From a virus: a stretch of DNA of 64,000 nucleotides. The DNA lies in the IMG/VR virus record IMGVR_UViG_3300042311_001406, positions 27,323-91,322 of that record. One strand, written 5' to 3'. The translations under genes were made by a program, and so were the position numbers. Under the pieces are notes generated by a model that was not told where the DNA came from, made no database searches, and worked only from the letters and a program-made list of their open reading frames with translations. This document shows, piece after piece, positions 5,062 through 41,219 of the stretch (positions are counted from its first letter, which is position 1; each line of letters begins with the position of its first letter).

Positions 5062-5160
5062 GTGATTCTTCCCTTGCGTGAGCGGTTGGACTTCCCTTAT
5101 AGGATCGATGCAGATGATCACAGCCTCGGATCGGCTGTCAACACGAAACTGGAGGAAATA
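5062..5160. promoter_or_regulatory. Divergent intergenic region
   Basis: 99 nt between the divergently read H1-like and dCTP deaminase-like genes. It must hold promoters for the minus strand at least. A TATAAG box is present on the minus strand (plus 5098-5103, CTTATA). A strong plus-strand Shine-Dalgarno (GGAGG at 5151-5155) precedes the GTG at 5161. Confidence 0.4.
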
Positions 5161-19633: not shown

Positions 19634-19671
19634 GCGGCACAGCAGCACAACACTGTTCACCGGAGCCAGAG

Positions 19672-20118: not shown

Positions 20119-20132
20119 CGGAAAGTTGGTGT

Positions 20133-20161
20133 TTGTGGAACACCGCTGCGCATGGTGATAA
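20133..20161 (+). promoter_or_regulatory. Candidate promoter
   Basis: TTGTGG (20133-20138), 17 nt, TGATAA (20156-20161), 44 nt before the next ATG. Confidence 0.35.
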
Positions 20162-20205
20162 GCTCTCATGGACTTCACAACCGTTCCCGCTGACAGGAGG
20201 ACCAC

Positions 20206-20805
20206 ATGCCGATTCTCAAGATGAAACTGCTCGAAGCCGACAGCGCTCCCGAGCTGCAGACCAAGATCAACGCCCTCGTCGCTGCCGACTCCATCGTCAA
20301 CGGCCTTCGTGGCATGGCGCTCTCGGCGTACCGCGCCGCCGACCTCGACACGCAGATGGTGGCCTGCTTGGCCTACGCGGGCACCGATCTTCCGGCTGGT
20401 GCCGGCAAGACCTCGAACGTGAAGGTCCTGTCCGTCGAAGGCAACACGTTGGCCAAAGCCCAGGCCGCCCTTGATCTGGCGCTCAGCGAAGTGCTGCAGG
20501 CCACCAACGCCACCGGCAACGCGAACACCAACCCCGGCGACATCAACGTCACCGGCAACATGTTCCTCGCTGGCGACGTCGGCCGCAAGATCCGCATCGG
20601 CGGCGCCTTGCGCACGATCACGGCCTTCACGAGCACGACCCGCGTCACCTACTCGGGTGCCGCCATCGCCGGTACCGGCCTGACCGTCGAGCTCCTGGGC
20701 GCCGAAGTCCTGCAGCCCGATGGCATCTGCGTCTCGGCATTCAAGGACCAGAACGGCGGCTCGCGCATCGCCCTGCTGGTGGCTGTCAGCGGCGAACAGC
20801 TCTGA
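20206..20805 (+). CDS. Abundant-type structural protein
   Basis: 199 aa with a strong AGGAGG site (about 20193-20198) and good GC-rich codon choice, suggesting high expression. The N-terminal half is helical (SAPELQTKINALVAADSIVNGLRGMALSAYRA, then LAKAQAALDLALSEVLQATN). The C-terminal half is beta-rich (DVGRKIRIGGALRTITAFTSTTRVTYSG...TVELLGAEVL). No catalytic motif is seen. It is flanked by a candidate promoter and a strong terminator, so it is probably a single-gene unit. Possibly a fibre or head-decoration protein. Confidence 0.6.
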   Translation: MPILKMKLLEADSAPELQTKINALVAADSIVNGLRGMALSAYRAADLDTQMVACLAYAGTDLPAGAGKTSNVKVLSVEGNTLAKAQAALDLALSEVLQATNATGNANTNPGDINVTGNMFLAGDVGRKIRIGGALRTITAFTSTTRVTYSGAAIAGTGLTVELLGAEVLQPDGICVSAFKDQNGGSRIALLVAVSGEQL

Positions 20806-20841
20806 GCCCGGTGGCTCAACAGCGGTGAGCAGACAGTGGGT

Positions 20842-20875
20842 GACGGCGGCCAGCAATGGTCGCCGTCGCTCTTTT
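20842..20875 (+). terminator. Rho-independent terminator
   Basis: GACGGCGGCCA / TGGTCGCCGTC stem of 11 pairs (one G-U) closed by a GCAA tetraloop (20842-20867), followed by GCTCTTTTG. It ends the 199-aa gene. Confidence 0.75.
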
Positions 20876-20906
20876 GTGGGACAGGTGGCCGTGGTACGGT
20901 CGCGCC

Positions 20907-21239
20907 ATGTCGCTCATCCCGCCGCCGCTTCCGCGCCTCAGCAGCCTTCCCGAGGTGTCGCTTGTGACCTGGAACCCAGTGAGCAAGTGCATTCACCGAG
21001 CGAACAAACTCATCGAAGCGCAGGGCGTGCAGTTCGAGTGCCCGTGTGGCGAAGGCCACATGATCTGCATCTGGTTCCACACGCCGCCAGTGCTCCCGCC
21101 TGCCAGCAGCGACTCGCCGCCGAACGAGAAGCGCTGGGAGCATGGCGGCACCAGCCTCGAAGACCTCAGCCTCTGGCCGTCTATCCTGCTGCCGTGCTGG
21201 CATGGCTTCATTGAAAACGGCGCCGTGAAGTCGGTCTGA
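20907..21239 (+). CDS. DUF6527-like small zinc-site protein
   Basis: 110 aa. The pattern FECPCGEGHMICIWF ... RWEHGGTSLEDLSLWPSILLPCWHGFIENGAV matches DUF6527-type proteins, with CPCG, an LxPSI element and a C.HGfI..G segment that together could bind a metal. Relatives occur widely in phages and, elsewhere, next to ubiquitin-like gene sets. Their biochemical role is not settled. ATG 20907 lacks a Shine-Dalgarno but follows a TACGGT box (20895-20900) by 6 nt, suggesting a leaderless message. Confidence 0.6.
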   Translation: MSLIPPPLPRLSSLPEVSLVTWNPVSKCIHRANKLIEAQGVQFECPCGEGHMICIWFHTPPVLPPASSDSPPNEKRWEHGGTSLEDLSLWPSILLPCWHGFIENGAVKSV

Positions 21240-24218: not shown

Positions 24219-24929
24219 ATGCGGAACAAGTACAGGAAGGATGTCTTCGTCGTTGCCGTGGAAGGCATCATCGGAGCAGGAAAGACCACGCTCACCAAGC
24301 GCTTGCGCGATGAGCTTCATCTGCATGAAGTGCCGGAGCCGGTTGAAGACAACCCGTTCCTCGAAAACTTCTACAAGGACCAAAAGAAGTGGGCCTTCCC
24401 CATGCAGATGTGGATGGTGCAGCGTCGAGCGGAGTCGATTGCTGACGCCGTCGAAAGTCACAAGAACATCATCACGGACCGCAGCCTGGTGGGAGACATG
24501 GTCTTCGCCAAGATGCACAAAGACAACGGAAACATCGACGCCGAGATGTGGCCCGTCTACCGCGACACCTGGAGCATGATGAACCGCTTGCTGGCACCCG
24601 TGCCAGACGTCATCGTCTTCCTGGATGTGAACCCCAGCACCGCGTTCAAACGCATGCACAACCGAGGGAGACAGTCCGAAGTCGACGGCGTCACACTGTC
24701 GTATCTTCAGGATCTCTGTGCCACATACCGCTCCACCATCGAGAAGTTGGGTAGCAACTTCAACGGGACGGAGTCATTCCGTCATACGCGCATCGAATGC
24801 CTCAAAGGAGACACTGATCACGCCGTGATCGTCGACATCGTCAAGCGACACATGGCCAACAAGACCGCCGCTTTCTCGAACGCCGCCGCCGCCAACGAGT
24901 ACAACAACGACAACGAGGTCAAGCTGTGA
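24219..24929 (+). CDS. Deoxynucleoside kinase
   Basis: 236 aa of the dNK/dGK family that phosphorylates deoxynucleosides to monophosphates for phage DNA synthesis. Motifs: P-loop VEGIIGAGKTT (about 12-22), 'EPVEDNPFLENFYKDQKKWAFPMQMWMVQRR' with the substrate-binding Glu and the aromatic/Gln/Arg row, 'TDRSLVGDMVFAKM' (DRS motif), and 'FLDVNPSTAFKRMHNRGRQSE' (lid). ATG 24219 is fixed by GGAGGA at 6-nt spacing. The C-terminus ends in an Ala/Asn-rich tail. The stop overlaps the GTG start of the RNR, so the two are coupled and share the hairpin control. Confidence 0.85.
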   Translation: MRNKYRKDVFVVAVEGIIGAGKTTLTKRLRDELHLHEVPEPVEDNPFLENFYKDQKKWAFPMQMWMVQRRAESIADAVESHKNIITDRSLVGDMVFAKMHKDNGNIDAEMWPVYRDTWSMMNRLLAPVPDVIVFLDVNPSTAFKRMHNRGRQSEVDGVTLSYLQDLCATYRSTIEKLGSNFNGTESFRHTRIECLKGDTDHAVIVDIVKRHMANKTAAFSNAAAANEYNNDNEVKL

Positions 24930-27900
24930 AGAACACCGTCACGATTCCATCCGCCGACTCCATCGACTACACGCTGAGCATTGCCGGCGACAAGATCGAG
25001 TGCAGGGTCCATAGCATCGACATCGTCAACTTCAACAAGCGTGACGTCGCCATCGAAGGCAGCGGCTTCAAGCAGAAGGATGTCGAGGCTCCTGACTTCT
25101 GGAGCGACACGGCCGTCCGCATCGTCGCCAACAAGTATTTCCGCGGCCACGACAGCGATCGCGAGAACAGCGTCAAGCAGCTGGTTGCTCGTGTCGTCGG
25201 CTCAATCGTCGACTTCCTCGACAGCAAGGACCGTTTCGCCAGCGCCACCGACAAGCACAGCTTCAAAAGTGTCCTGACCCATCTGCTCTACGTGCAAGCG
25301 TTCGCGTTCAACAGCCCGGTGTGGTTCAACCTCGGCACCGAAGTCAGCCCGCAGTGCAGCGCTTGCTTCATCCTCGGCGTCGACGACAACATCGAATCCA
25401 TCCTCAAGTGGATCAACGACGAAAGCCTCGTCTTCCGTCGTGGCAGCGGTGCCGGCGTCAACATCTCCCGCATCCGCCACAAGAACGCGCGTCTGCAGGG
25501 CGGCGGCCACGCCAGCGGCCCGCTGAGCTTCGCCAACGGCGCCAACTACATGGCCGGCGCCATCAAGAGCGGCGGCAAGACGCGTCGCGCGGCCAAGATG
25601 CTGGTCATGAACGACAACCACCCCGACGTCTTCGACTTCATCGACACGAAGTCGATTGCCGAGCGCGTCGCCAAGGCGCTGATCGCTGGTGGCTTCAGCT
25701 CGAAGTTCAATGCCGAAGGCGGCGCCTACGAGCTCGCCCCCTGGCAGAACGCCAACAACAGCGTGAGCCTGTACGACCGCTTCCTCAATGCCGTCTTGGT
25801 CGACGGAGACCATGACCTCGTTGACCACAAGGGCGCTGTGGTTCGCACCATCAAGGCTCGCGAGCTGTGGCGCAAGATGGGTGAGGCAGCCTGGGAATCC
25901 GGTGACCCCGGCCTCCACTTCCGTGACACGATGAACCGCTTCAACACGGTCGCAGAAGATGGCGAGATTGAAGCCAGTAACCCGTGCTGCTTCACCGGCG
26001 AGACGCTCGTCGACACCAGCGAAGGAAAGATCCGCATCGACGAACTCGTCGCTCGAAGCCAGCGCGGTGAGGACCTGCCAATGGCATGGGCCTTTGACCT
26101 TGAATCGTCGCTGCCTGTCTTGCGCCGCATCGTCAAAGCCTGGAAGGCCGGCGACGCGACCAAGCTTGTCCGCGTCACGACGGACCGCGGCATCAGTGTG
26201 TTGTGCACACCTGAGCACCGCTGGCTGAAGCGCAATGGCGCTTGGGTGGAGGCTCAGCATCTGAAAGCTGGGGACAGCCTGCGCAAAACGGCGCGCTGGG
26301 TGAACAAGGATCGCTCTGGTCGCCACTGCTTGAACATGCGTGGCACAGAGTCAGCGCCAAACGGAACCGTCTGGCAGAACCGATACATGTGGGAGCAGGC
26401 CTATGGACCAATTCCTGACGGCATGGAAGTTCACCACAAAAACGGAGACCCGACTGACGACCGCCTCAGCAACTTTGAGCTGATCCCTGTCAGCGATCAT
26501 CGCTCTGAACACTCGGCTGGCGACGAGAACCCACGTTTCATTGACGTGGAAGATCATGTGCTTGTGGAGGCGTGGGATGCTGTCGCTGCCGGCAGAAAGC
26601 GTGGTTCCGGTGTGACGCCAACAACATGGAACGCACACATCAACAGCAATGGGCTCAAAGGACATCTGCCGTTGGCTGCATCACCAACGAACGGAGGGCG
26701 AATCCAAGGCATGCCTTGGGCGGAGTTCGAGAGCAAGATCAACGAGCTGCGTTCATCTGTGAACGATCGCGTCGTCAGCGTCGAGTTCATTGCCAACGAC
26801 ACGGCGACATCCGTCTTCGACATCGAAGTTGAAGGCGTGCACAACTTCTCGGTGACCAGCCCCGGCGCTGTTCATTCGGTCGTGGTGCACAACAGCGAGT
26901 ACCTGTTCATCAACAACACCAGCTGCAACCTCGCGAGCTTCAACCTCGTGCGGTACATGATCCGTGACGGTCTCAAGCGCGTGTTCAACTGGCGCGCATT
27001 CCAGCGTGACGGCTTGGCGATGTACCTGTGTCTCGACGCCATCGTCGACATCAGCAGCTACCCGACGCCAGAGATCGACGAGACGACCCGCAAGTACCGC
27101 ACGCTTGGTGCCGGGTACGCCAACATTGGCGGCATGCTGATGCGTATGGGCATTCCGTACGACAGCGACGAAGGCCGTCACATGATCGCCGTCATCACCA
27201 GCGCGCTCCAGGGCACCATGGTCTGCAACAGCATGAAAGCTGCTGAGGCCTGGGGCACATTCGATCGCTACGAAGCGAACCGTGATCACGTCGACAAGGT
27301 GATTCTGTCGCACTACAACGCACAGGTCGGGCTGACCTACAACAAAGACGACGTGGTGTGGAATCCGTGGCAGCACTACGAGCAGACTGTCCTGCGAGAC
27401 AACACGAAGATCGCGCGTGTGCGCAACGCGCAGTTCACGGTCGTGGCGCCCACTGGCACCATCGGCTTCATGATGGACGTCGACACGACGGGCATCGAGC
27501 CAGACTTCAGCCTGGTGAAGTACAAGGAGATGGTTGGCGGCGGCTACATGACGCTGGTCAACACCGCGATGTCCGAAGGCCTCGAAGTGCTGGGCTACGA
27601 TGAGGAGACGCGCAAAGCCATTGAGGCGCACGTCACAACCACTGGCGGTGTCGTCGAAGGCGCTCCCGGTCTGAAGCCAGAGCACTACGGCGTCTTCGAC
27701 TGCGCGGTCGCAGCGTTCGGCGGCACACGCTTCATTCGCCCTGAGGCGCACATTGAGGCCATGGCCGAGGCGCAGCCGTTCCTCAGCGGCGCCATCAGCA
27801 AGACCGTCAACATGCCAGAGTCGTCGACGGTGGATGACATCCTCGACATCTACATGAAGTCGTGGAAGCTGGGTCTCAAAGCTGTTGCCGTCTACCGCGA

Positions 27901-28627
27901 CAACTGCAAGCAGAGCCAGCCGCTCAGCACCTCGAAGACGACGGACAAGGGCAGCGCCACCGTCATCCTTGAGTCGGCTCCAGCGACGTCGATGTCTTAC
28001 GACGACATGACGATCTGCAAGTTGGAAGCGCAGATCAAAGACCTGAAGTCGATCATTGGCAGCCTGCGACGTGGAGAGCGTGAGCGCCTGTCGACGTCGC
28101 ACATGGGCCACATCCACAAATTCACCATTCAGGGGATGAGTGGCCACTTGACGGTCGGCTTCTACGACGATGGCCGCATCGGCGAAGTCTTCGTCGAGAT
28201 GAGCAAGGAAGGCAGCACCGTCGGTGGCTTCCTGGACGCCTGGAGCAAGGCATTCTCGCTCATGCTGCAGTACGGCGCTCCGCTGACTGAAGTCCTGCAG
28301 AAGTTCGAGGGCAGCCGCTTCGAGCCATCTGGCTTCACGCTCAACGAGAACATCCGCACCTGCACATCGGTGATCGACTACGTCAGCCGCTACATGAAGA
28401 TGCTGAGCTCAAGCGCACCGAAGGCGGCTCCGATGCTCGACAGTGCCCCTGGCGACCATCAGGTTGAGGAAGGTGAAGACGTCGACGATTCGCACGTCCC
28501 GTCAAACACGCAGAAGTTCGTCGACACCAATGGTCGCATCTGTTCGTCATGCGGAAGCAGCAACCTGCGTCAAAGCGGCGCCTGCTTCGTTTGCAATGAG
28601 TGTGGCTCAAGCACGGGGTGTGGCTGA
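24926..28627 (+). CDS. nrdJ: Class II (adenosylcobalamin-type) ribonucleotide reductase with intein
   Basis: 1233 aa, of which about 931 form the reductase after removal of a 302-aa intein. Family signatures: 'FAFNSPVWFNLG' and 'QCSACFILGVDDNIESIL' near residues 128-160, 'RGSGAGVNISRIR', 'NPC' joined after splicing to 'SEYLFINNTSCNLASFNL' (catalytic Cys and Glu), 'VAPTGTIGFMMDVDTTGIEP', and a C-terminal zinc-ribbon-like CSSCG...CFVCNECG. This is the single-chain B12-dependent type, needing neither oxygen nor a small subunit. The start is GTG 24926 overlapping the kinase stop, with GAGGTC upstream. It reduces ribonucleotides for replication. It stays inactive until the intein leaves. Confidence 0.9.
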   Translation: MKNTVTIPSADSIDYTLSIAGDKIECRVHSIDIVNFNKRDVAIEGSGFKQKDVEAPDFWSDTAVRIVANKYFRGHDSDRENSVKQLVARVVGSIVDFLDSKDRFASATDKHSFKSVLTHLLYVQAFAFNSPVWFNLGTEVSPQCSACFILGVDDNIESILKWINDESLVFRRGSGAGVNISRIRHKNARLQGGGHASGPLSFANGANYMAGAIKSGGKTRRAAKMLVMNDNHPDVFDFIDTKSIAERVAKALIAGGFSSKFNAEGGAYELAPWQNANNSVSLYDRFLNAVLVDGDHDLVDHKGAVVRTIKARELWRKMGEAAWESGDPGLHFRDTMNRFNTVAEDGEIEASNPCCFTGETLVDTSEGKIRIDELVARSQRGEDLPMAWAFDLESSLPVLRRIVKAWKAGDATKLVRVTTDRGISVLCTPEHRWLKRNGAWVEAQHLKAGDSLRKTARWVNKDRSGRHCLNMRGTESAPNGTVWQNRYMWEQAYGPIPDGMEVHHKNGDPTDDRLSNFELIPVSDHRSEHSAGDENPRFIDVEDHVLVEAWDAVAAGRKRGSGVTPTTWNAHINSNGLKGHLPLAASPTNGGRIQGMPWAEFESKINELRSSVNDRVVSVEFIANDTATSVFDIEVEGVHNFSVTSPGAVHSVVVHNSEYLFINNTSCNLASFNLVRYMIRDGLKRVFNWRAFQRDGLAMYLCLDAIVDISSYPTPEIDETTRKYRTLGAGYANIGGMLMRMGIPYDSDEGRHMIAVITSALQGTMVCNSMKAAEAWGTFDRYEANRDHVDKVILSHYNAQVGLTYNKDDVVWNPWQHYEQTVLRDNTKIARVRNAQFTVVAPTGTIGFMMDVDTTGIEPDFSLVKYKEMVGGGYMTLVNTAMSEGLEVLGYDEETRKAIEAHVTTTGGVVEGAPGLKPEHYGVFDCAVAAFGGTRFIRPEAHIEAMAEAQPFLSGAISKTVNMPESSTVDDILDIYMKSWKLGLKAVAVYRDNCKQSQPLSTSKTTDKGSATVILESAPATSMSYDDMTICKLEAQIKDLKSIIGSLRRGERERLSTSHMGHIHKFTIQGMSGHLTVGFYDDGRIGEVFVEMSKEGSTVGGFLDAWSKAFSLMLQYGAPLTEVLQKFEGSRFEPSGFTLNENIRTCTSVIDYVSRYMKMLSSSAPKAAPMLDSAPGDHQVEEGEDVDDSHVPSNTQKFVDTNGRICSSCGSSNLRQSGACFVCNECGSSTGCG
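25988..26893 (+). mobile_element. HNH-endonuclease intein inserted in the RNR active site
   Basis: Residues 355-656 of the RNR frame. It starts with Cys (CFTGETLVDTSEGKIRIDEL, block A), has block B 'TDRGISVLCTPEHRW', an HNH homing-endonuclease part (QNRYMWEQAYGPIPDGMEVHHKNGDPTDDRLSNFELIP), and ends FDIEVEGVHNFSV...VVVHN before Ser (+1). The insertion is directly after the catalytic Cys of N-P-C-S-E, so any unspliced enzyme is inactive and precise loss restores function. Splicing residues (Cys1, His-Asn, Ser+1) are all present. Confidence 0.9.
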
Positions 28628-29040: not shown

Positions 29041-31878
29041 ATGACGACACTCTTCAACGACGATGACGACGACAGCTTCTTTGACATCGTCAACATCACG
29101 GCGAAGGCAGCTGTGAACAACGCCGCCGCCGCCAAGAAGACGGAGCCCGCAGCAAAGGCGTCGTCATACGGAGACGCGAAACCCAACAAGGGCAACGAAG
29201 CATCGCAAGCCATGACGCGACTCGTCGCCACGATCCCCGGTATCCGCGCGATGCCTGTGCGTGATCGACTGCCATTCATTGAAGGATGGGCATCAGAGGC
29301 GTTCTGGTCGAAGCCGATGCCTGAACTCATGGAGCAGTGGCAGAAGGAATACGGAAACGACATCGACTACGCCTTCGTGCTTGGCGATCACTGCGGCCAG
29401 GACAGCGGTGACCTCGTCCTCGAAGCCGACAACGAAGCCGGTGAACAGTGGCTGCGCGAGAACGCGCCTGCGACACCGACGATGGTGAGCACGCGTCGCG
29501 GTTTCAACCACCGCCACTATCGCATCGACATGGCCGGACGCGGCAACCGCATCGACATCTTTGGCAGCGTCAAGAAGCACAAGAAGGCGGCCCTGGACGC
29601 CGGCTTCAAGGTTGAACTTCCGCGTGGCCGCAAGGCCACCGAAGAAGAGCGCGCCGCACGCGACAGCGAGATGGCGAAGGCGTTGGCTGCCATCCCGATG
29701 GGGCCAGTCATCGACCTGAAGTGCAACGGCGGCCAGGCCATGGCGCCAGGCGGGCGCAACAGCAAGACGCCGAACTTCCGCTACGAAGAAGTCGGCGGCC
29801 TGTGGACGATCGACATGTGGCGCGCGCGTCCCGTGTTCGACCCGAAGTGGTTCCCTGATAGCGTCTGGGCTCGTGAGCTGGCTGCCGACACGCAGCAAGG
29901 CTCGCACGCCAGCTACGACGTCGAATACTGGACCCTGGACCGTCGGGTCTCTGCGGCGATGCGGTACGCGGCCAACATGAAGCCGACGGTGAGTGGCGAG
30001 GGTGCGCACAGCTCGTTCTTGCGGAACGCCATCCTCATTGTGCGCGGCTTCGACCTCGACGTGCAGTCCGGTCGTCGCGTGCTCACGTATTGGGGCCAAC
30101 AGGTCTGTGCGCACGAACCCTGGAGCACCAAGGAGATCGAACACAAGCTCGAATCAGCACTGCAGCAGGGCAAGGAACCGATGGGGTTCAAGCTTGCTGC
30201 TCGTCGTGGCGATGAGACTGTTGGTGAACGGTACGCGGCCATGATGCGTGCCATGGCCAACGACAGCATGACCGCTGAACTCGAAGGCGACCTCATCAGC
30301 GAGGTCATGAACGACGCGGCTCCCACCTATCGCAGCGAAGGCAGCGAGGACCAGGACGATGGCACTGTCGATCCGTTCGACATGTCACCAGTCGAGGTGC
30401 CAGCGGCGTCGCCAGCCAGTGCTCTGGCCTCGCAACTCCCGCAGACGACGCCGATGTTTGGTCCCGGCTCTGGGGCGGCGACGGCAACCAAGATGACGGT
30501 GGCGGCTCGTGCGGCCGGCGCCAGCGACGCGGCGCATGGTGCCAGCGACATCGCCGACAGCGAGCGCCAAGTGCTGGCCGAGCTCGGCATGGACATCGCC
30601 GACATCCTCAGCAACCCGAAGATTGGCGTCATCTACAAGCGCATCGAAGGGAAGGTCGTTCGCCTGCCGCCGACGACGCTGAATCTGGCTCAGTTCCTGA
30701 TGCACAGTCGCATGTTCAAAGGGCGGCTCCGCAAGAACCTGATGAACCATGAGATGGAGTTCGACAACGTCGGCCTGGAGAGCATTCACACGCTGAAGAC
30801 GACGATCGATACGCTGTTCCAGGAAGACGTGCCAAAGGAACGCATCGAGGATTCTCTGGAGACTGTTGGTCTGTACTGCCGGTATGACCCCAGCCTTGAA
30901 GAGTTCGAGAAGCTCCCGCCGTGGGACGGCGAAGAACGGCTGATGCGTGTGGCCGGTGAAGTGCTGCCAGTTGAATCGGCGAGCCTGTACCTCTCAAAGG
31001 TCAAGATGGCGAAATCCATCATGGCGATGGTGGCCCGCACACTTGATCCTGGCTGCAAAGTCGACACGATTCCGATCTTCATCGGCAAGCAGGGTGCCCG
31101 GAAATCGTCGTTCTGGGAGATGCTGGCTGGGCCAAAGTTCTTCTCGGACACCGCAATGCAGAACATCGGCGGCCGTGACGAGATGTGGCTCATCTCCAGG
31201 TTCCGGGTCATCGAGATTCCTGAGATCGACGGCATGTACTCGAAGCACCAGAACGCGCAGATGAAGGCCTTCTTCTCGAAGCGACGGGATGACTACCGTC
31301 TCCCGTACGCCCGTCGCATGGTCAGCGTGGCGCGACGCAGCATCATGGTCGGCACCACGAACGAGCACGAGATTCTGAGCGACCCCACCGGCAGCCGTCG
31401 GTATTGGCCGATTCCCACCATCGGCAAGGCCCGCCTGGACCTTCTCGGGAAGTGGCGCGACCAGCTGCTGGCGGAGGCGATTCACAAGGTCTCGGCCCAC
31501 CTCGTAGCCAAAGCCGCGGGACGTGAAGAGTCAAAAGAGTACAAGGAAGGCATGTGGTGGCTCGATGACCAACAAGACGAGGAACGCTCCAAAGACAACC
31601 TGAAATACCAAGAAGACGACCCATGGCGGCCAGCGATCGAGGAGTTCCTGCGCCCCATGACACCTGACCACAAGTTCCAGGTGGCCGACGTTATCGACTA
31701 CCTCAAGCTGCCGATTGACCGAGTCGCGCGCCGAGACAGCATCAGAATTGCGAACATCCTGAACAATCTCTCCTGCCGACGCTTCAACGAGGGAAGACCA
31801 ACGACCGTCGACAAAAAAAATGGGCGCTGGTGGGAGCCGCCAGCAAGCCAAGACCCTTTGGCGAGCACGGAAGAATAG
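29041..31878 (+). CDS. Prim-Pol / VapE-type primase-helicase
   Basis: 945 aa. The N-terminal about 60 residues are acidic then Ala/Lys-rich. Residues about 65-280 form a bifunctional primase-polymerase (Prim-Pol, AEP) domain: 'DLVLEADNEAGEQWL' (acidic metal site, from residue 124), 'TPTMVSTRRGFNHRHYRID' (the H.y motif, about 145-162). A low-complexity linker (400-500) leads to a virulence-associated-E/SF3-like helicase: 'FIGKQGARKSSFWEML' (Walker A, 682-689), 'RFRVIEIPEIDGM' (Walker B), 'DDYRLPYARR', 'VGTTNEHEILSDPTGSRRYWPI'. It would prime and unwind DNA. It lies right beside the candidate origin and ends at a strong terminator. Confidence 0.85.
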   Translation: MTTLFNDDDDDSFFDIVNITAKAAVNNAAAAKKTEPAAKASSYGDAKPNKGNEASQAMTRLVATIPGIRAMPVRDRLPFIEGWASEAFWSKPMPELMEQWQKEYGNDIDYAFVLGDHCGQDSGDLVLEADNEAGEQWLRENAPATPTMVSTRRGFNHRHYRIDMAGRGNRIDIFGSVKKHKKAALDAGFKVELPRGRKATEEERAARDSEMAKALAAIPMGPVIDLKCNGGQAMAPGGRNSKTPNFRYEEVGGLWTIDMWRARPVFDPKWFPDSVWARELAADTQQGSHASYDVEYWTLDRRVSAAMRYAANMKPTVSGEGAHSSFLRNAILIVRGFDLDVQSGRRVLTYWGQQVCAHEPWSTKEIEHKLESALQQGKEPMGFKLAARRGDETVGERYAAMMRAMANDSMTAELEGDLISEVMNDAAPTYRSEGSEDQDDGTVDPFDMSPVEVPAASPASALASQLPQTTPMFGPGSGAATATKMTVAARAAGASDAAHGASDIADSERQVLAELGMDIADILSNPKIGVIYKRIEGKVVRLPPTTLNLAQFLMHSRMFKGRLRKNLMNHEMEFDNVGLESIHTLKTTIDTLFQEDVPKERIEDSLETVGLYCRYDPSLEEFEKLPPWDGEERLMRVAGEVLPVESASLYLSKVKMAKSIMAMVARTLDPGCKVDTIPIFIGKQGARKSSFWEMLAGPKFFSDTAMQNIGGRDEMWLISRFRVIEIPEIDGMYSKHQNAQMKAFFSKRRDDYRLPYARRMVSVARRSIMVGTTNEHEILSDPTGSRRYWPIPTIGKARLDLLGKWRDQLLAEAIHKVSAHLVAKAAGREESKEYKEGMWWLDDQQDEERSKDNLKYQEDDPWRPAIEEFLRPMTPDHKFQVADVIDYLKLPIDRVARRDSIRIANILNNLSCRRFNEGRPTTVDKKNGRWWEPPASQDPLASTEE

Positions 31879-31895
31879 AAATCTTTGAAGTCAAA

Positions 31896-31920
31896 AGCCA
31901 CCTTCGGGTGGCTCTTTTTT
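31896..31920 (+). terminator. Rho-independent terminator of the replication operon
   Basis: AGCCACC-TTCG-GGTGGCT (31896-31913), a 7-bp stem with a stable UUCG tetraloop, followed by C and a long T-run into 31922. Confidence 0.9.
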
Positions 31921-31940
31921 TTCTTTAGCTTGACTTTTTT

Positions 31941-32004
31941 CTTTGAATAGAAAAATTTTGACCAATAGAAATATCTGCAGAGCCTAAAATATTTCTATTC
32001 AAAG
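31941..32004. repeat. Nested AT-rich inverted repeats
   Basis: CTTTGAATAGAAA (31941-31953) and TTTCTATTCAAAG (31992-32004) are perfect 13-bp arms. Inside, AATAGAAATAT (31964-31974) and ATATTTCTATT (31989-31999) are perfect 11-bp arms. The two pairings compete. ATAGAAA also recurs near 31876, 31947 and 32420. This could be a DNA-unwinding element beside the origin. Confidence 0.7.
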
Positions 32005-32100
32005 TTTCACTTCTTTTAGTTCAGCGATTTCTTTGAGTTCAGGCTCCGCAGTTCAAAGAAGTTGCCGGAATTTATTTGAATCGATAATGTATAGTGAGAA

Positions 32101-32840
32101 AAAAAAGTGACAAACAAAAGTCAGTCACTTTTCCATGTATACAGTTTTGCTGGGAGCGGTTTTCATGGCTTCAGGATGCGGCGGCCAACGACGTCGTCGC
32201 GCAGTGATCGATGCAAATATACTCTGTAGGAAAAACGCGTTAACAAAAGTCAGTCACTTTTTCAGTCACTAGCTGTGAAATCAAGGACTTACGCCCGGAA
32301 TCGGCGCGACCTGAAGCCGCGAACCACTGTCATGATAAAAGTCAGTCACTTCCTTGTAAGTCCTTGTGGCGCCTTCTCTTTTCCCTCTCTTTTTTCCTTT
32401 AGTGACTGAAAATCAGAAAATAGAAACTTTTCGGAGTCGGAGAAAAGCACGGTCGGTCTGCTGGTGCGGCGCACGCGGGAGTGCTGGCCGGTCCCTGGCT
32501 CTGGCGCTGGGCTGGGAAACTTGTTGAATTTCTGAAAAGTCAGTCACTTTTTTAAATTTGCAGCGAATTCCGTTGGCGCCACAAGGACTTACAAGGAAAT
32601 GACGAACTTAAAGTAAGGCACTGGGTCGACGGTTCACGGAAGGTCAACTTCCGGCGTAAGTCCTTGATTTTACAGCTAGTGACTGAAAAAGTGACTGAGA
32701 AGTGACAGAGATGAAATCCTACACAGTAAAGTGAACGAGTGTTCTCGTTTTGACGCCGCGTCCGGAAGCCATCCCACGGCCCCGCGTGCGCACAACAATG
32801 GCCGCAAACCCCCGAAAAAAGTCAGTCACTTTTTTGAGCA
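32101..32840. other. Candidate replication origin: 447-bp dyad with iterons
   Basis: Non-coding and strongly AT-rich compared with flanks. Boxes AGTCAGTCACTT lie at 32119-32130, 32248-32259, 32340-32351, 32538-32549 and 32820-32831. CAGTCACT is at 32263-32270, and AGTGACTG (reverse) at 32401-32408, 32679-32686 and 32690-32697. They sit in a large symmetry: outer arms 32251-32300 and 32649-32697 (48 of 50 positions match), inner arms 32350-32373 and 32575-32598 (24 bp perfect), and boxes 32401-32408 with 32541-32548, all centred on 32474. The centre (about 32440-32520) is GC-rich and not symmetric. It lies next to the primase-helicase gene. Between and around the arms I see no believable gene. 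Confidence 0.7.
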
Positions 32841-32902
32841 GTATATATTTTGGGCAAATTCAGATTCTGGCGTTTTCTTTGAGTTCAGAACGACACGTAA
32901 AA

Positions 32903-32923
32903 AAAGCGGCACGGAGCCGCTTT
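32903..32923 (-). terminator. Minus-strand terminator-like hairpin
   Basis: AAAGCGGC-ACGGA-GCCGCTTT (32903-32923). On the minus strand it is followed by a T-run (TTTTTTACGTG overall), giving a standard terminator, perhaps stopping transcription from the 33.2-35 kb genes before it enters the origin. Confidence 0.65.
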
Positions 32924-32924
32924 C

Positions 32925-32989
32925 ATCACGAAGCACGCCTGAGCGCTTCAAACCCTGTGAGGGGTTCAGCGCTTTGGCGGCTTCGTGAT
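32925..32989. other. Compact structured element
   Basis: ATCACGAAGC (32925-32934) pairs perfectly with GCTTCGTGAT (32980-32989). Inside, AGCGCT (32942-32947) pairs with AGCGCT (32968-32973), and AACCC (32951-32955) pairs with GGGTT (32962-32966). This gives a 65-nt three-step stem. It could be a small RNA, a processed 3' end or part of the origin. From 32999 to 33154 I see nothing clear apart from GTGGAT/ATCCAC around an A8 run near 33075-33096. Confidence 0.45.
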
Positions 32990-33154
32990 GGCTGTCAGGA
33001 CGTCATCAAGCATGGACATGTGGAACTCCGGAATCTGAGAGGGGGCGCGGCGACCAGCTGTTGGCCGCCTGCTTGTGGATAAAAAAAACCATCCACCCTG
33101 CACCCACCCAGTCCATTGCTGGACCAGATGGGTACAGAGCGAATGGCTGCCCTT

Positions 33155-33187
33155 GGCCAGGCGCCCTGGGTCAACCAGGGCGTGGCC
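33155..33187 (-). terminator. Hairpin just past the 341-aa gene
   Basis: GGCCA (33155-33159) and CGCCCTGG (33162-33169) pair with CCAGGGCG (33175-33182) and TGGCC (33183-33187), with a 2-nt bulge. It lies 10 nt beyond the minus-strand stop. It has no T-run, so its role as terminator is less certain. Confidence 0.5.
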
Positions 33188-33197
33188 AGGAGCGAGC

Positions 33198-34223
33198 TCA
33201 GGCCTTGGTCACCGCCGAGGCGGCGGCCAGCTCGGCTGCGGCCTGCTGCTGCACCGTTGCGTTGAGGGCCGGGAGGCTCTTCATCACCGCGGTCATGGCT
33301 GCCTCGACCGCAGCCGCCGTGGCGCGCGCCACGATGGCTTCGATGTCCGGCTGGTTGGCCTTGGCGGCTTCGAGTGCGGCCGTGGTCGCAATCGTCACGG
33401 CCTGCTCGATGTCACGGCTGTGGGACTTGACCTGGCCCATGGCCGCCTCGACTGCCGCCGTCGAGACTTCACGAGCGGCAGCCACGGTCTCGTTCTTGAG
33501 GCGGGTGGTGAAGCCTGCCTCCGCGCCGTAGTACAGACCGTCGCGCTGCTTCTGCTGGCGCACCACGCGGCTGTACATGTCCGAGCGCGCCAGGTAGCGC
33601 TCGTCGACGTACTTGATCAGCGTGTACCGCATCGACGCGTTCGTGTCGTAGACCGCCTTCTGGGTGCGGCTCGCACGCTCGAAGATCTGGCGGCGCATGC
33701 CGACACGACCAATCGTCGCGCCGGAATACACGTAGCAGAACGCAGCGATGAGGCTGTCGCCCTTGATGCCAAGTTCCGTGGCGATCTTGCGCATGTCCTC
33801 ATTGAGGCCACCACGGATCGCGCTGTTGTTGAGCTGGGCCGGGGCATCCATCTCGATGACGTCAGCCACCGAGCGGATCTGCTCAATGGTGCTGTCGATG
33901 TTCGAGTCCACGAGGAACTCTTCGACCTTGGTCACTTCGAGACGGGCGATCATCGAGAGGAACGCGTCGACGTCGGGAACGAAGTGACGCACTTCGGCCT
34001 TGTTCTCGATGAGCATGGCGAGCGTTTCTTCGGCATCGCGCAGTGCAGCGTCTTCCGGCATCTTGATCTTGCCGCCCTCACGCAAAGCAGTCGACAGGCG
34101 ACCGCCGTGGATGCGCTTGGTGTCCTCAAGGAACTGCTTGTCGGCGCGAGCTTCAGGGCTCGTGCTGCCGAGGATGGCGGTGGTGACGAAGTTGTTGAGC
34201 TTGCGGGTGATGGTGCTGGTCAT
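33198..34223 (-). CDS. Unknown 341-aa protein with helical C-terminus
   Basis: I do not recognise the family. Residues 1-210 are mixed, with 'KQFLEDTKRIHGGRLSTALREGG', 'FVPDVDAFLSMIARLEVTKVEEFLVDSNIDSTIEQIRSVADVIEMD' and 'GDSLIAAFCYVYSGATIGRVGMRRQIFERASRTQKAVYDTNASMRYTLIKYVDERY'. From about 235 on it is an Ala/Val-rich helical region with many AAxEAA steps, probably a coiled coil. It is driven by the TGAAAA/TATAAT promoter at 34303-34331 and has the AGAAAGAAAGAG leader shared by other minus-strand genes, so it is probably made early. A long plus-strand frame over it is a shadow. Confidence 0.8.
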   Translation of the reverse strand: MTSTITRKLNNFVTTAILGSTSPEARADKQFLEDTKRIHGGRLSTALREGGKIKMPEDAALRDAEETLAMLIENKAEVRHFVPDVDAFLSMIARLEVTKVEEFLVDSNIDSTIEQIRSVADVIEMDAPAQLNNSAIRGGLNEDMRKIATELGIKGDSLIAAFCYVYSGATIGRVGMRRQIFERASRTQKAVYDTNASMRYTLIKYVDERYLARSDMYSRVVRQQKQRDGLYYGAEAGFTTRLKNETVAAAREVSTAAVEAAMGQVKSHSRDIEQAVTIATTAALEAAKANQPDIEAIVARATAAAVEAAMTAVMKSLPALNATVQQQAAAELAAASAVTKA

Positions 34224-35093: not shown

Positions 35094-38000
35094 ATGAGCA
35101 TCCAGCACGCGTCCTCGACCTTCGACAGCGTCAAGCGCAACCTCGTGGAACACCTCACGAGCTTGTTCCCTCTGGAGAGCGAGGGTCGAACGTTGCGGCT
35201 CACTGGCCCAATCGTGGTCGATGATCGACTGGCGATGGATGACTACGAGGGGCAGCGCGCGGCTCGTACGGCCGGGAAGTCGTGGACGGTGCCCGTCAAA
35301 GCGCCGTTGGAACTCCTGAAGGGCGACCGGGTCATCGACCGGAAGACGGTCAAGCTGCTCGACCTGCCACGTCTGACCAACCGCGGCTCGTACATCGTTG
35401 GCGGCACCGAATACATGTTCCCAGCCCAGAAGCGCCTGCGCTCTGGCGTCTACGTGCGCACCCGCGGCGACGGCACCACCGAGGCCATGTTCAACCTCAA
35501 GAAGGGCCGCAACTTCTCGGTGGCGATGCACCCGTCGAAAGGGAACTTCGTCATCGAGATCGCGACGACCACGACGCTGCCGCTCTACCCGCTCCTGCGT
35601 GCACTCGGTGTCGAAGACAGCGAGATGGTGAAAGCCTGGGGCCGTGAAGTGTTCACGGCGAACCACATGGTCGAAAGCAGCGACGCCTACAAGAAGGCAC
35701 AGCAGCGCATCTTCGACTTGATCTCGTACAACGATCGTCGGGAAGACGCTCAGGTCCCACAGCCCGCAGACATGAACGCCGCCATCCGTGACAAGATCGG
35801 CGAGTCGTCGTGGGATGGCGACAACGTCGAGCTGACTCTCGGCTTCAAGACCGCGGGTCTCGACGGACCCAGCCTCTTGGCCGCCGCCACGAAGTTGCTC
35901 CAGGTGAACCGCAACGAGGCCAAGGAAGACAACCGTGAGTCGCTGATCCACAGCGACATCGTCGACTTGAGCGACTACATCGTCGAGCGCTACAACGACC
36001 GCCAGTTCCGTGGCCGCCTGCAGCGCCAGCTTGCCCGCATGGTGGGCAATGCCGACACCGTGACCGACGCGATCCCGCGTGACGCTTTCCAGCGCCCTGT
36101 GAACTCGCTGATGACCGAGGCCGCCATCAGCCGCAGCCCGAACCAGGGCAACCCGCTTGGCATTATGAGCGACTACACCGCAGTCACGGTTCGCGGTGAA
36201 GGTGGCATCGAGAGCGACCATGCGCTGACGCGTGGCGTGCGCGCGCTCGACCCCAGCCACCTCGGCTTTCTGGACCCAGCCCACACGCCTGAAGGCGCCC
36301 AGATCGGCACGACCCTGCACTTGGCTGCCGGTACCCGCAAGAAGGGCCGCACCTTGGTGACCGACGTGTGGAACTTCCGCAGCAAGTCTCTCATGGAGGC
36401 GACGCCGATCGACATCCACAAGGGCGTCATCGCGTTCCCCGACTTCTTTGACGTCGTCAGCAAGCGGCTCAAGCCGGTCAATGGGAAGATCAAAGCCATG
36501 AAGGCTGGCGAGATCGTTGAGGTCTTGCCTGCAGAAGTCGACATGGCTTTCACGCTCCCAGAGCAGCTCTTCGACACCAACTCGCTCGCTGTTCCGTTCT
36601 TGAGCCACAACAACGGTGTGCGCTTGATGACGGCTGCCAAGATGGGTGTGCAAAGCAAGACCCTGGTGCACCGCGAGGCGCCCAAGGTGCAGGTGCTGCT
36701 GCCCGACCAGAAGGAGACGCTTGAAGGCGCCATGGGCAAGAGCTTCAGCGTGCAGTCCCCCGTCGATGGCGTCGTCGAAAAGATCGAAGAACAGGCGATC
36801 ATCGTCAGCGGCCAGAAAGTGCCGATGCCGAAATACTTCCCGTTGAACAACGGCAACTACTGGCACGCCAAGCCCAAGGTGAAGGTCGGTGACAAGGTCA
36901 AGAAGGGTCAACTCCTGGCCGACACCAACTTCACCAAAGACGGCGTTCTGGCGCAGGGCACCAACCTGCGCGTCGCCTACGTGCCGTACAAAGGCCTCAA
37001 CTTCGAGGACGGCGTCGTCATCAGCGAAGGGGCGAGCTCGAAGCTGACCAGCGAGCACGTCTACCCGGTCGACTTCGCGTACGACAGCGAGACGGTGATC
37101 AACAAGAAGTCGTTCCAGTCGTACTTTCCGACGACGTTTACCGAAGAGCAGGTCAAGCAGATCGACGATGGCGGTCTGATCACTGTCGGCACAACGCTGA
37201 CCTACGGCATGCCCATGGTGCTGGCGCTCAAGAAGCGGCAGCTCGGCACCGAGGGTGAGCGCCTGGCCTCCATCTCCCGCATGCTGGCCACCGAGTACAG
37301 CGACGCAAGCTTGACGTGGAAGAAGCACGTTGCCGGCGAAGTGCTGGAGATCGTGCACCGCAACAATGAGATCGTCATCCACGTTCGCACCGAGGAGCCG
37401 GCGCGCATCGGCGACAAGATCGTTGGCCGCTACGGCAACAAGGGCGTAATCGTCCACATCATCCCGAACGACCAGATGCCGAAGGATGCTGGTGGCAAGC
37501 CATTGGACTTGCTGCTGAATCCGAATGGCGTCGTCGGCCGCATGAACCTGGGCCAGATTCTGGAGACCACCAGCTCACGTATCTCCGAGAAGACTGGCAA
37601 GCCGTACGTCGCCAGCGGCTTCGGTGGAAATGCCACGGAGCGCGTAACTGCTGAGCTCAAGAAGCTGGGCCTGAAGGATCACGAGACGATTCACGATCCG
37701 ATCGACAACATCGACATCCCCGGCATCCTGGTTGGCAGCCAGTACATCTACAAGCTGGAGCATCAGGCCACCAAGAAGGTGAGCTCGCGCGGTGGCGGCC
37801 CTGAAGCGCTGGAGCACGGCGAGGTCTACACCAGCGAGAACCAGCCGGCGAAGGGTTCTGGCGTCGGCGGACGCGCCATCGGCAGCATGGAGATGTACGC
37901 GCTGTTGGCCCACGGCGCGACGAAGAACATCCACGAGATCTACACGAGCAAGTCGAACTTCGATCCGGAGTTCTGGCGTGCTGTGGTCAGCGGCCTCCCG

Positions 38001-41000
38001 CTCCCGCCGCCGAAGGCAACTTTCAGCAGCGAGAAGTTCGTCACCCTGCTCAAGGGTGCCGGCATCGACGTCCGCATCGACGAAGACATGAAGGAGGCGC
38101 GCTTCGTTCCCTTCCTCGATCGCCAGGTGCTGGCCGCCAGCAACGGCGAGATCAAGAAGTCTGCGGTCATTCGCGACAAGGACGGCGCCGAGATTCCTGG
38201 TGGCCTCTTCGACCTGAAGGCGACGGGTGGCCTCAAGGGCGAGCACTACTCGCACATCACGCTGCCAGAGCCGATGCCGAGCCCGATGTTCAGCAAGGCC
38301 ATCGCAACGCTGCTTGGCATCCGTGAGGACGACATCAGCAGCGTCATCGACGGCAGCATGGAACTCAAGTCTGGTGGCTCTGGTCCGCAGGCGCTCAAGA
38401 AGGCTTTGTCTGCCATCGACGTCGACGCCCGCATCAAGGCGGTCGAGACAGAGATCGTCGGCAAGAAGGCGGCGCAGCTCAACAAGCTGCACCGTGAACT
38501 TCGCTTCCTGAAGGCGCTGAAGTCGACCGGCACCAAGCCGAGCGAGTACATGATCAGCGTGCTGCCGGTCATCCCGCCGAAGTTCCGCCCCATCTACACA
38601 CTGCCTGACGGCGCCATCCGCGTCAGCGACCTGAACTACCACTACCAGGCGCTCCTGCAGCTCAACGAGCAGATTGCTCGCATGAAGGGCAAGCCGGAGT
38701 TCAAGGACGAGTACAAGAAGGCGCTGGGCCAGGTCTACAAGGGCATCAATGGTGTGGCTGGCGTCGACGCTGGCATCGTCGACCGCAAGGGCCAGGACAT
38801 CAAGGGCATCGTCGACACGCTGTCTGGCCAAGGATCGCCGAAGGGCGGCTACGTTCACTCGACGATGCTGAAGCGCCGCCAGGACATGAGCGGCTCGGCT
38901 GTGGCCACCGTGAACCCGAAGCTGGGCCTCGACGAAGTCGGCATCCCGGAAGAGACGGCCTGGAAGATGTTCCGCCCGCTCGTGCAGCGCGAGATGTCCA
39001 TCATGGGCTTCAAGCCGAACGACGCCAAGAAGGACATCGACGACCGCACCCCCGGCGCCCGCCAGGCGTTGGAGAACGTGATGCGCTCGCGCGTCGTCAC
39101 CATCAACCGTGCGCCGTCGCTGCATAAGTTCTCGATCATGGCGTTCAAGCCTCGCCTAACCAAGGGCTACGCCGTCGAGATGAACCCGTTCGTCTTCAAC
39201 GGCTTGAACCTCGACCTCGACGGTGACGTGCTCGGCATGCATGTTCCCGTCAGCGAAGAGGCGAATGCTGAAGCGCACGACATGCTCCCCAGTAAACACC
39301 TGTACAAGCCAGGGAGCGGCGCGCTCATGCCGAAGCTCGGTCAGGAGTACGTTCTGGGTCTCTACCGGATCACGTCGCCTGGCGAGAAGACGACGAAGGT
39401 CTACAGCTCGACGACGGCAGCCATCGCCGACCTCACGGCCCGCAAGATTGCCCCGAATGCCATGGTCAGTGTCCGCGGTCTTGGCGCGACGACGCCAGGC
39501 CGTGTGCTCATCAACAGCGTGCTGCCAGCCGCGGTCCGAGACTACGGCCTCATCTACACGCAGAAGGCGACCAACGCGAAGTTGGAGGAGATCGACAAGA
39601 AGGTCGGCCGTGACGCCTTCAGCAAGGCCCTCAGCGCCATCAGCGACATTGGCCGCCAGTACGCCTACAGCACCGGCGCCAGCTTCCTGTTGAGCGACCT
39701 GCAGGTGATGACCAAGGACCGCAACGACGCGTATCGGATCGCCGATCGCAAGGCCGACGCCATCCGTCTTGGTCCCGGCACTGAGGCTGAGAAGCGCAAG
39801 AAGCTCATCGAGATCTACCAGGCTGTCAGCAACGATCTGACCAACAACATCCACCTCAAGGACAACGACAGCAAAGGTCGCAACAACATCACCGAGATGC
39901 TGACCAGCGGCGCCCGTGGTAGCCCGGAGCAGGCCCGTCAGTTGGTGGCCAACGTCGGCGTCATGCTTGACCACGAGAACCGGCCGATGCCCTTGCCTGT
40001 CCGCGGCACATACACCGAGGGCCTCGACACCGCTGAATACTTCCAGCACATGTACGGAGCCAGAAAGGGCATGATCGACAAGTCGCAGTCGGTTCGTGAC
40101 CCTGGCGCGCTCACGAAGCAGATGGTCGTCTCGGCCACCAGCTTCCGTGTGGCCATGCTCGACTGTGGCACCAAGGGTGGCATCGCTGAGACCACGAAAC
40201 GGAACGATGCGATCGATCGCTATCTGGCTGAAGACATCCCTGGTGTTGCGCGGCACAACGAAGTCGTCACGACGACGGTGCTCAACAAGGCACGGGCCAA
40301 GGGCATTGTCGACATCAAGGTACGCAGCCCGTTGACGTGCCTGGTGCCGCAGGGTGTGTGCGTGCGCTGCTACGGCCTCGATGCTGAGGGGCAGCCGCCA
40401 TCCATCGGTGCTCACGTTGGCGTCGTCGATACCCACGCCATCACGGAGCCCACGACGCAGATGGCGCTCAAGAGCTTCCACACAGGTGGTGTCGCCACCC
40501 AGAAGCAGCAGCTCAGCACCGGGTTCGATCGTGCGGCTCAGTTGTTCGAGATGCCGTCGTCGCTCCGCGGCCACGCCATCGTCGCAGAAGTCCCCGGCGT
40601 GGTTTCTTCCGTCGAGAAGAGTAACTTCGGTGGCTGGTACGTCACGATCGCCAACAACAAGCACCGCATCCCGCACGACCGCGAAGTCATCGTCAAGGTC
40701 GGCGACGTCGTCACACCTGGTCAGGCGCTGACGTCCGGCAGCGTGCGACCGCAGGACACCATGCGTTTGCGTGGTCTGCACGCAGCCCGCATGACCTTGC
40801 GCGACGACATTCGGTCCGTGTTCGCGGAAGGTGGCGTGAACCTGAAGCCGAAGACGATCGAAACGGCTGTGCGCATGCTGACCGACACGGTCCGCATCAT
40901 CAACGCGGGGGATCACCCACACCTTGTCGTCGGCGACCACGCCAGCATGAGCCAGGTGGAGAACTGGAACCGGGAGAACCGCGACAAGCATCAGGTTCGG

Positions 41001-41219
41001 TACGTCAACGAGCTCCCAGGTTCTGAGTTCTTGCCGCACAAGCAAGATGACTGGGCGCACCGGATGGCCCATAATCGCCTGAGCGAAGTGCTGACCACGC
41101 AGGCGCCAATGGCGGGCACCGCCAGCCTGAAGGGTCCCAGCCCGTTTGCGTCACTGTTCCTTGGCCGCCCCATCCCTCTTCCTGTCAGCTCGACGCCGTC
41201 TATCGGCAACAAAGGTTGA
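35094..41219 (+). CDS. Single-chain multisubunit-type RNA polymerase (fused beta-beta')
   Basis: 2041 aa with beta-like (1 to about 960) and beta'-like (about 960-2041) halves in one frame. Beta motifs: 'LDPAHTPEGAQIG' (TPEG at 398), 'NFEDGVVISE' (636), 'GRYGNKG' (778-784), 'LLLNPNGVVGRMNLGQ'. Beta' motifs: 'LPVIPPKFRPI' (1157), 'NRAPSLHKFS', the catalytic triad 'NLDLDGD' with Asp1374/1376/1378, trigger-loop flanks 'SGARGS' (1605) and 'GARKG' (1655), a Cys cluster at 1749/1756/1759, 'EPTTQMALKSFHTGG' (1785). It is shorter than the two E. coli subunits together (about 2750). No alpha, omega or sigma is visible in this window. It presumably transcribes phage genes. The ATG has no Shine-Dalgarno. 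Confidence 0.9.
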   Translation: MSIQHASSTFDSVKRNLVEHLTSLFPLESEGRTLRLTGPIVVDDRLAMDDYEGQRAARTAGKSWTVPVKAPLELLKGDRVIDRKTVKLLDLPRLTNRGSYIVGGTEYMFPAQKRLRSGVYVRTRGDGTTEAMFNLKKGRNFSVAMHPSKGNFVIEIATTTTLPLYPLLRALGVEDSEMVKAWGREVFTANHMVESSDAYKKAQQRIFDLISYNDRREDAQVPQPADMNAAIRDKIGESSWDGDNVELTLGFKTAGLDGPSLLAAATKLLQVNRNEAKEDNRESLIHSDIVDLSDYIVERYNDRQFRGRLQRQLARMVGNADTVTDAIPRDAFQRPVNSLMTEAAISRSPNQGNPLGIMSDYTAVTVRGEGGIESDHALTRGVRALDPSHLGFLDPAHTPEGAQIGTTLHLAAGTRKKGRTLVTDVWNFRSKSLMEATPIDIHKGVIAFPDFFDVVSKRLKPVNGKIKAMKAGEIVEVLPAEVDMAFTLPEQLFDTNSLAVPFLSHNNGVRLMTAAKMGVQSKTLVHREAPKVQVLLPDQKETLEGAMGKSFSVQSPVDGVVEKIEEQAIIVSGQKVPMPKYFPLNNGNYWHAKPKVKVGDKVKKGQLLADTNFTKDGVLAQGTNLRVAYVPYKGLNFEDGVVISEGASSKLTSEHVYPVDFAYDSETVINKKSFQSYFPTTFTEEQVKQIDDGGLITVGTTLTYGMPMVLALKKRQLGTEGERLASISRMLATEYSDASLTWKKHVAGEVLEIVHRNNEIVIHVRTEEPARIGDKIVGRYGNKGVIVHIIPNDQMPKDAGGKPLDLLLNPNGVVGRMNLGQILETTSSRISEKTGKPYVASGFGGNATERVTAELKKLGLKDHETIHDPIDNIDIPGILVGSQYIYKLEHQATKKVSSRGGGPEALEHGEVYTSENQPAKGSGVGGRAIGSMEMYALLAHGATKNIHEIYTSKSNFDPEFWRAVVSGLPLPPPKATFSSEKFVTLLKGAGIDVRIDEDMKEARFVPFLDRQVLAASNGEIKKSAVIRDKDGAEIPGGLFDLKATGGLKGEHYSHITLPEPMPSPMFSKAIATLLGIREDDISSVIDGSMELKSGGSGPQALKKALSAIDVDARIKAVETEIVGKKAAQLNKLHRELRFLKALKSTGTKPSEYMISVLPVIPPKFRPIYTLPDGAIRVSDLNYHYQALLQLNEQIARMKGKPEFKDEYKKALGQVYKGINGVAGVDAGIVDRKGQDIKGIVDTLSGQGSPKGGYVHSTMLKRRQDMSGSAVATVNPKLGLDEVGIPEETAWKMFRPLVQREMSIMGFKPNDAKKDIDDRTPGARQALENVMRSRVVTINRAPSLHKFSIMAFKPRLTKGYAVEMNPFVFNGLNLDLDGDVLGMHVPVSEEANAEAHDMLPSKHLYKPGSGALMPKLGQEYVLGLYRITSPGEKTTKVYSSTTAAIADLTARKIAPNAMVSVRGLGATTPGRVLINSVLPAAVRDYGLIYTQKATNAKLEEIDKKVGRDAFSKALSAISDIGRQYAYSTGASFLLSDLQVMTKDRNDAYRIADRKADAIRLGPGTEAEKRKKLIEIYQAVSNDLTNNIHLKDNDSKGRNNITEMLTSGARGSPEQARQLVANVGVMLDHENRPMPLPVRGTYTEGLDTAEYFQHMYGARKGMIDKSQSVRDPGALTKQMVVSATSFRVAMLDCGTKGGIAETTKRNDAIDRYLAEDIPGVARHNEVVTTTVLNKARAKGIVDIKVRSPLTCLVPQGVCVRCYGLDAEGQPPSIGAHVGVVDTHAITEPTTQMALKSFHTGGVATQKQQLSTGFDRAAQLFEMPSSLRGHAIVAEVPGVVSSVEKSNFGGWYVTIANNKHRIPHDREVIVKVGDVVTPGQALTSGSVRPQDTMRLRGLHAARMTLRDDIRSVFAEGGVNLKPKTIETAVRMLTDTVRIINAGDHPHLVVGDHASMSQVENWNRENRDKHQVRYVNELPGSEFLPHKQDDWAHRMAHNRLSEVLTTQAPMAGTASLKGPSPFASLFLGRPIPLPVSSTPSIGNKG

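Follow-up and report, generated by a model that had tools for sequence, protein, structure and literature searches.

The origins of PICIs lie immediately 3' of pri-rep and carry two iteron sets, a pri-rep-ori layout that has been described as unique to these elements (PMC6092414). Replication of pRN1 needs a stem-loop of 100 bp that lies 3' of the AEP-helicase gene, and phages of the BPP-1 type have been proposed to replicate in the same manner (PMC4234260). The origins of iteron plasmids, among them pSC101, R6K and P1, regularly contain sites for IHF and DnaA (PMC4980987). Judging from its sequence, the phage element described here is very probably a replication origin, one of the iteron type with a pri-rep-ori layout. 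An earlier note on this DNA had also read it as a replication origin, and this reading is supported by boxes, IHF sites and a DnaA box that are unique in the record, by the adjacent primase-helicase gene and, most decisively, by an equivalent cluster in the nearest relative. The further remark in that note, that no phage origin of this shape had been described, needs tempering: origins that directly follow a fused primase-helicase gene and have two iteron sets or a large inverted repeat are on record for PICIs (PMC6092414) and have been suggested for pRN1 and BPP-1 (PMC4234260). The pri-rep-ori origin type is already known; here it would take the form of an inverted duplication with IHF sites.

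The window, that is, the whole stretch of 64,000 nucleotides that was analysed, comprises bases 27323-91322 of IMG/VR record IMGVR_UViG_3300042311_001406 (91,322 bp) and has a GC content of about 60%; positions below are those of the window unless the record is named. The virus record is possibly incomplete, because relatives attain 155-200 kb. Protein searches showed that the phage encodes a terminase and a major head protein. Its RNA polymerase gene (35094-41219, + strand) specifies one fused protein of 2041 aa similar to the beta and beta' subunits, and the closest cultured matches, in Vibrio phages D69, D148 and D181 and Salmonella phage Arash, are split. Overall, this looks like a large, lytic phage. 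Elsewhere in the genome, a class II ribonucleotide reductase gene (24926-28627, + strand) is interrupted by an intein carrying an HNH endonuclease. To the left of the window, at about 19141-21120 of the record (L007), the 8-mers AGCGTGTC and ACGACACG occur up to eight times within 1.3 kb, mostly inside the predicted genes g015-g016.

The element occupies a non-coding intergenic region (31879-33197) between the convergent ends of g049 (29041..31878, + strand) and g050 (33198..34223, - strand). The former encodes a Prim-Pol/VapE-type primase-helicase of 945 aa, the proposed initiator, and the latter a protein of 341 aa with no assigned function. The intrinsic terminator of the primase-helicase operon was located at 31896..31921 on the + strand, where the earlier note's placement of the element after the terminator of the replication operon would have it, and a terminator-like hairpin of g050 lies at 33091..33141 on the - strand. 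The first box begins 240 bp beyond the end of g049. The region was also said to be AT-rich, which holds for the whole (48% GC against about 60% for the genome) and fails at the centre, where 32450-32499 is 78% GC. The A+T-rich stretches are found at 31950-32150 (58-74%) and 32400-32449 (64%).

The entire mirror-image element spans 32219..32729 and is symmetric about position 32474. Its left outer arm (32250..32295, + strand), which contains two boxes and an exact IHF-type site, matches its mirror at 32653..32698 on the - strand in 45 of 46 positions, and the left inner arm GTCACTTCCTTGTAAGTCCTTGTGGCGCC (32345..32373, + strand) matches the right inner arm (32575..32603, - strand) in 28 of 29. 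Since both inverted repeats give the same axis, the large centred dyad that had been noticed at 32474 is borne out, and the perfect 24-bp inner arms noted earlier are contained within the 28/29 repeat. Over a longer span (32250-32298) the outer arms still agree at 46 of 49 positions. In the whole 91,322-bp record the arm pairs score 43 and 26 as inverted repeats, and the only other inverted repeat scoring at least 16 is a hairpin at 31941-32004 (score 16), about 240 bp off. Markov-1 simulation of the intergenic region gave a top score of 15 against the 43 observed. Other phage loci and the RNA-polymerase relatives, together approximately 1.97 Mb, contained just two inverted repeats that scored at least 20, both with loops of 18-21 nt.

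When the two mirror halves are compared, one block of 49 bp is 94% conserved and another of 29 bp is 97% conserved, all blocks being in register; the 46-bp spacers between them are still 54% alike (25/46). The symmetry reaches further outward to a 12-bp element, TACTSTGTAGGA, at 32219-32230 and 32718-32729 (11/12). Given this outward extension and the residual similarity of the spacers, the structure is, on the mirror comparison, a diverged inverted duplication in which the box and IHF elements were retained and the spacing preserved while the spacers decayed. Other repeats were observed around the dyad: the hairpin at 31941-32004 that adjoins it begins with CTTTGAATAG, a direct repeat, TTTCTTTGAGTTCAG, flanks it at 32028 and 32874 with its copies 846 bp apart, and a big G+C-rich hairpin is present to its right at 32925-32995.

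The boxes are confined to this region. All nine copies of the core TCAGTCACT in the record fall within 710 bp (32121-32830), six in forward orientation (starting at 32121, 32250, 32262, 32342, 32540 and 32822) and three in reverse (32401, 32678 and 32690), where simulation gives an expected mean of 0.009. Thus, the genome-wide search that the earlier note had proposed found no scattering of boxes. A full 13-bp box, AAGTCAGTCACTT, occurs five times, at 32118..32130, 32247..32259, 32339..32351, 32537..32549 and 32819..32831, and all copies are on the + strand; the symmetry is therefore borne by the arms and the shorter boxes. Outside the arms, the first and last of these full boxes are direct copies, as had been reported for positions 32119 and 32820. 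Short boxes lie at 32262..32270 (+ strand) and, on the - strand, at 32401..32409, 32678..32686 and 32690..32698. The single boxes flanking the centre (32401-32409 and 32540-32548, the latter within the full box at 32537..32549) are present as claimed, but their mirror register is off by 1 nt. A 16-nt box pattern gave 23 isolated, chance-level matches and no cluster across IMG/VR, and a literature search by the motif sequences returned primers only.

Each outer arm contains one exact match, AATCAAGGACTTA, to the IHF consensus WATCAANNNNTTR (taken from PMC10380432), at 32279..32291 on the + strand and 32657..32669 on the - strand; these mirror-placed copies are the only two exact matches in the 91-kb record. 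The inner copies, CCACAAGGACTTAC, are without the WAT part of the consensus. The only consensus DnaA box in the record, TTATCCACA (33074..33082, - strand), lies in the same intergenic region; being outside the dyad it is weak evidence and could have arisen by chance. The sequence CAAGGACTTAC, present again beside primases in L126 and L148, could suggest a new conserved origin module, but wider searches led to the rejection of this reading: AATCAANGACTTA also turned up in DLP_6, in a microvirus, in plasmids and in attP regions, and it is simply the IHF consensus plus a 5' A-tract. It is shared by phages and plasmids that are unrelated, some copies being next to integrase genes, as would be expected of IHF sites, and the outer-arm elements are therefore read in this way. 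Stenotrophomonas phage DLP_6 (L187) carries three tandem copies of the IHF-type sequence AAATCAACGACTTACG at 5947-6020, in an intergenic gap near regA, and blastn located this repeat at 19 places in its genome. In bajarodmic microvirus 496 (L188), an exact IHF-type 20-mer, CTGTAAAATCAAGGACTTAC, sits at 2456-2477; the hairpin that contains it belongs to the main intergenic region, which precedes the gene for the replication initiator.

As in PICIs and SaPIs (PMC6092414), the candidate origin is non-coding, directly follows the primase-helicase gene and has two mirrored iteron sets around a centre. It differs from these origins in its long inverted-duplication arms and two exact IHF sites, and in a centre of 78% GC where that of PICIs is A+T-rich. 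The genome that carries it is no satellite, as the phage encodes a terminase, a head protein and a fused RNA polymerase of its own, and no integrase was found in the record. The candidate origin would resemble a PICI origin in its workings, but the phage itself is not a PICI. The large inverted repeat directly 3' of a gene encoding an AEP primase and an SF3-type helicase is shared with pRN1 and BPP-1 (PMC4234260), in the latter of which the arms themselves are two inverted TTGCCTCGTT pairs around a 60-nt centre. The present element is about 510 bp long, compared with about 100 bp in those systems, and has nested arms, nine boxes and IHF sites; its helicase is VapE-like, whereas that of the pRN1/BPP-1 type is ORF904-like. 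Phage P4 alpha, acting with ori and crr iterons, likewise combines primase, helicase and iteron binding in one protein (PMC4234260), the last of which is a prediction for g049, but its primase is of the Toprim and not the Prim-Pol type. The iteron plasmids pSC101, R6K and P1 also have iterons, IHF sites and DnaA sites together in the same region, but their initiators recruit the host DnaB, whereas in g049 helicase and primase are part of the protein itself.

Alignment of the RNA polymerase yielded 335 related IMG/VR stretches, some on contigs of 130-200 kb, and 36 records were searched; single-protein IMG/VR searches using g049 or the RNA polymerase gave no matches. Among these 36 records, only G001 (IMGVR 3300042898_006838, 155,932 bp) keeps the primase-helicase, with 54% identity in the RNA polymerase and 31% in the primase-helicase, and no close relative (>55%) carrying the dyad was found. 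The TCAGTCACT boxes and the long arms are absent from G001, as is any DnaA box, and a single IHF match was counted there regardless of position. G001 has a different iteron, CATGGGACA, all six exact genomic copies of which lie at 127343-127657, in both orientations and in two groups flanking a centre, 3' of the primase-helicase and beyond a possible small gene. The repeat count of this cluster was never attained by simulated sequences, and the other stretches of G001 that attain it consist of CCG-type repeats only. The earlier note had held that absence of the dyad from relatives keeping the primase-helicase would speak against an origin. Taken literally, the dyad is absent from this one; yet a cluster of different iterons occupies the corresponding site in G001, and for this reason the missing dyad counts as support for an origin. 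An unchanged layout with a changed box is what would be expected if initiator and iterons diverged together, and iteron sequences likewise vary from element to element in PICIs and SaPIs.

Iteron clusters directly 3' of an AEP/VapE primase-helicase gene were found in all four other phages checked, a small, hand-picked set. In BPP-1 they are the two inverted pairs of TTGCCTCGTT, and in L148 they are formed by GTGTTCGG. S-LBS1 (L201) has AGGTTAGG iterons at 5144-5548 and LWP01 (L202) has TGTCAACA iterons at 5276-5597, each directly 3' of the VapE/Prim-Pol gene; these two clusters are likely to be unannotated origins of the cultured phages concerned. In L126, GGGGTAC repeats form a cluster that lies on the 5' side of a D5-type primase and also contains two IHF-type sites in inverted orientation. 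The paired palindromes TAAGTCNTTG-N6-AAGGACTTAC look like something different. The family to which they belong consists of paired sites on IMG/VR contigs with the form TAAGTCNTTG-N6-AAGGACTTAC-(21-29 nt, often G+C-rich)-GTAAGTCCTT-N6-CAANGNNTTA, members of which include L129, L136, L137, L139, L142, L144, L145, L149, L151, L152 and L154, among others. The halves resemble a tyrosine-recombinase core or an attC-type site, a DnaA box lies beside the paired site in L127, L130, L132, L147 and L150, and one paired-site contig, L140, has a protease gene whose product starts with LExRxLLS, which recalls proteins of Planctomycetes.

Several other functions are conceivable for a cluster of this kind. 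The lambda attP has parts that resemble such boxes and IHF sites, and the element could accordingly be taken for the attP of a tyrosine integrase, with TCAGTCACTA as arm-type sites and AATCAAGGACTTA as IHF sites; Acidovorax phage AP1 and Pseudomonas phage USP_25 do have IHF-type sequences of the same form next to their integrase genes. However, no integrase or resolvase of the tyrosine or serine recombinase type was detected in the possibly incomplete record even at E <= 10, and g050 gave no recombinase match in searches and has no catalytic motif recognisable by eye. The window contains no tRNA and the centre has no closely spaced core-arm pair, so that an attP is very unlikely. Short repeats that cluster between genes are typical of centromeres, too, and a partition site for a ParB-like protein in a plasmid-like phase of the phage would look similar. 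It is nevertheless quite improbable here: no ParA or ParB was recognised among the scanned proteins (a subset of the genes), and the element adjoins the primase-helicase gene, as do the equivalent clusters in other phages.

The boxes could also be operators or promoters, serving a regulator or the big fused beta/beta' RNA polymerase that this phage has, and four weak promoter-like matches are present within 31600-33400. The flanking genes both run towards the region, so that it adjoins only 3' ends, and each is followed by a terminator; this makes such a reading poor, and since the box is found nowhere else in 91 kb it is not a general promoter signal; transcriptional control is thus an extremely doubtful explanation. 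That long inverted arms surround an unrelated centre would fit a MITE-like mobile element with terminal inverted repeats, for which the chance is close to negligible, given one copy in the record, no transposase inside, direct-orientation boxes that persist outside the arms (32119 and 32820) and internal IHF and box elements that are conserved while the spacers have decayed.

For the preferred reading, a replication origin, a working model can be proposed from the layout and from the domains of g049. This protein has a strong helicase match (PF05272, 2.6e-54), and its best solved relative is 7pds. The Prim-Pol match (PF09250) is weak in g049 (0.0011) but clear in the G001 orthologue (1.5e-11), and the first catalytic acidic residue is E in g049 and D in the orthologue, which makes the Prim-Pol activity of g049 uncertain. 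Sequence search found no C-terminal winged-helix DNA-binding domain in g049, and an AlphaFold prediction of the C-terminus of its helicase, made from two sequences only, had a mean pLDDT of 32. In the model, g049, with its Prim-Pol and VapE-type AAA+ helicase, would bind the AGTCAGTCACTT boxes, and host IHF would bend each half at its outer-arm site, bringing outer and inner boxes together, as the two exact sites suggest. The mirror symmetry would allow one helicase assembly to load on each half, the two facing opposite ways. Melting would take place in the A+T-rich stretches to either side, and not in the G+C-rich centre itself, the Prim-Pol domain may make the first primers, and forks would then depart both ways. 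GC skew had been proposed earlier as a check on such a two-ended start. At 4-fold sites the skew has no sign switch across the element and tracks gene orientation; it therefore gives a bidirectional start no support, and the check is negative or uninformative.

More tentatively, the inverted duplication of a half-origin, consisting of boxes, an IHF site and an inner box, may have produced a paired origin whose geometry alone places two self-loading primase-helicase rings head-to-head, and the PICI-type pri-rep-ori may be a common plan of full-size AEP/VapE phages, in which the iterons change with the initiator and the layout stays constant; we consider this combined proposal possible but somewhat doubtful.

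To our knowledge, origins of large metagenomic phages have almost never been identified. In the present phage a candidate origin can be read directly from the DNA, by the rule that a confined repeat cluster lies directly 3' of an AEP/VapE primase-helicase gene, and the same rule found equivalents in G001 and in four other phages. The pri-rep-ori layout of PICIs is thereby linked to full-size phages, and the locus offers a proposed initiator-iteron pair that can be tested, together with a mirror-image geometry by which two helicases may be loaded.
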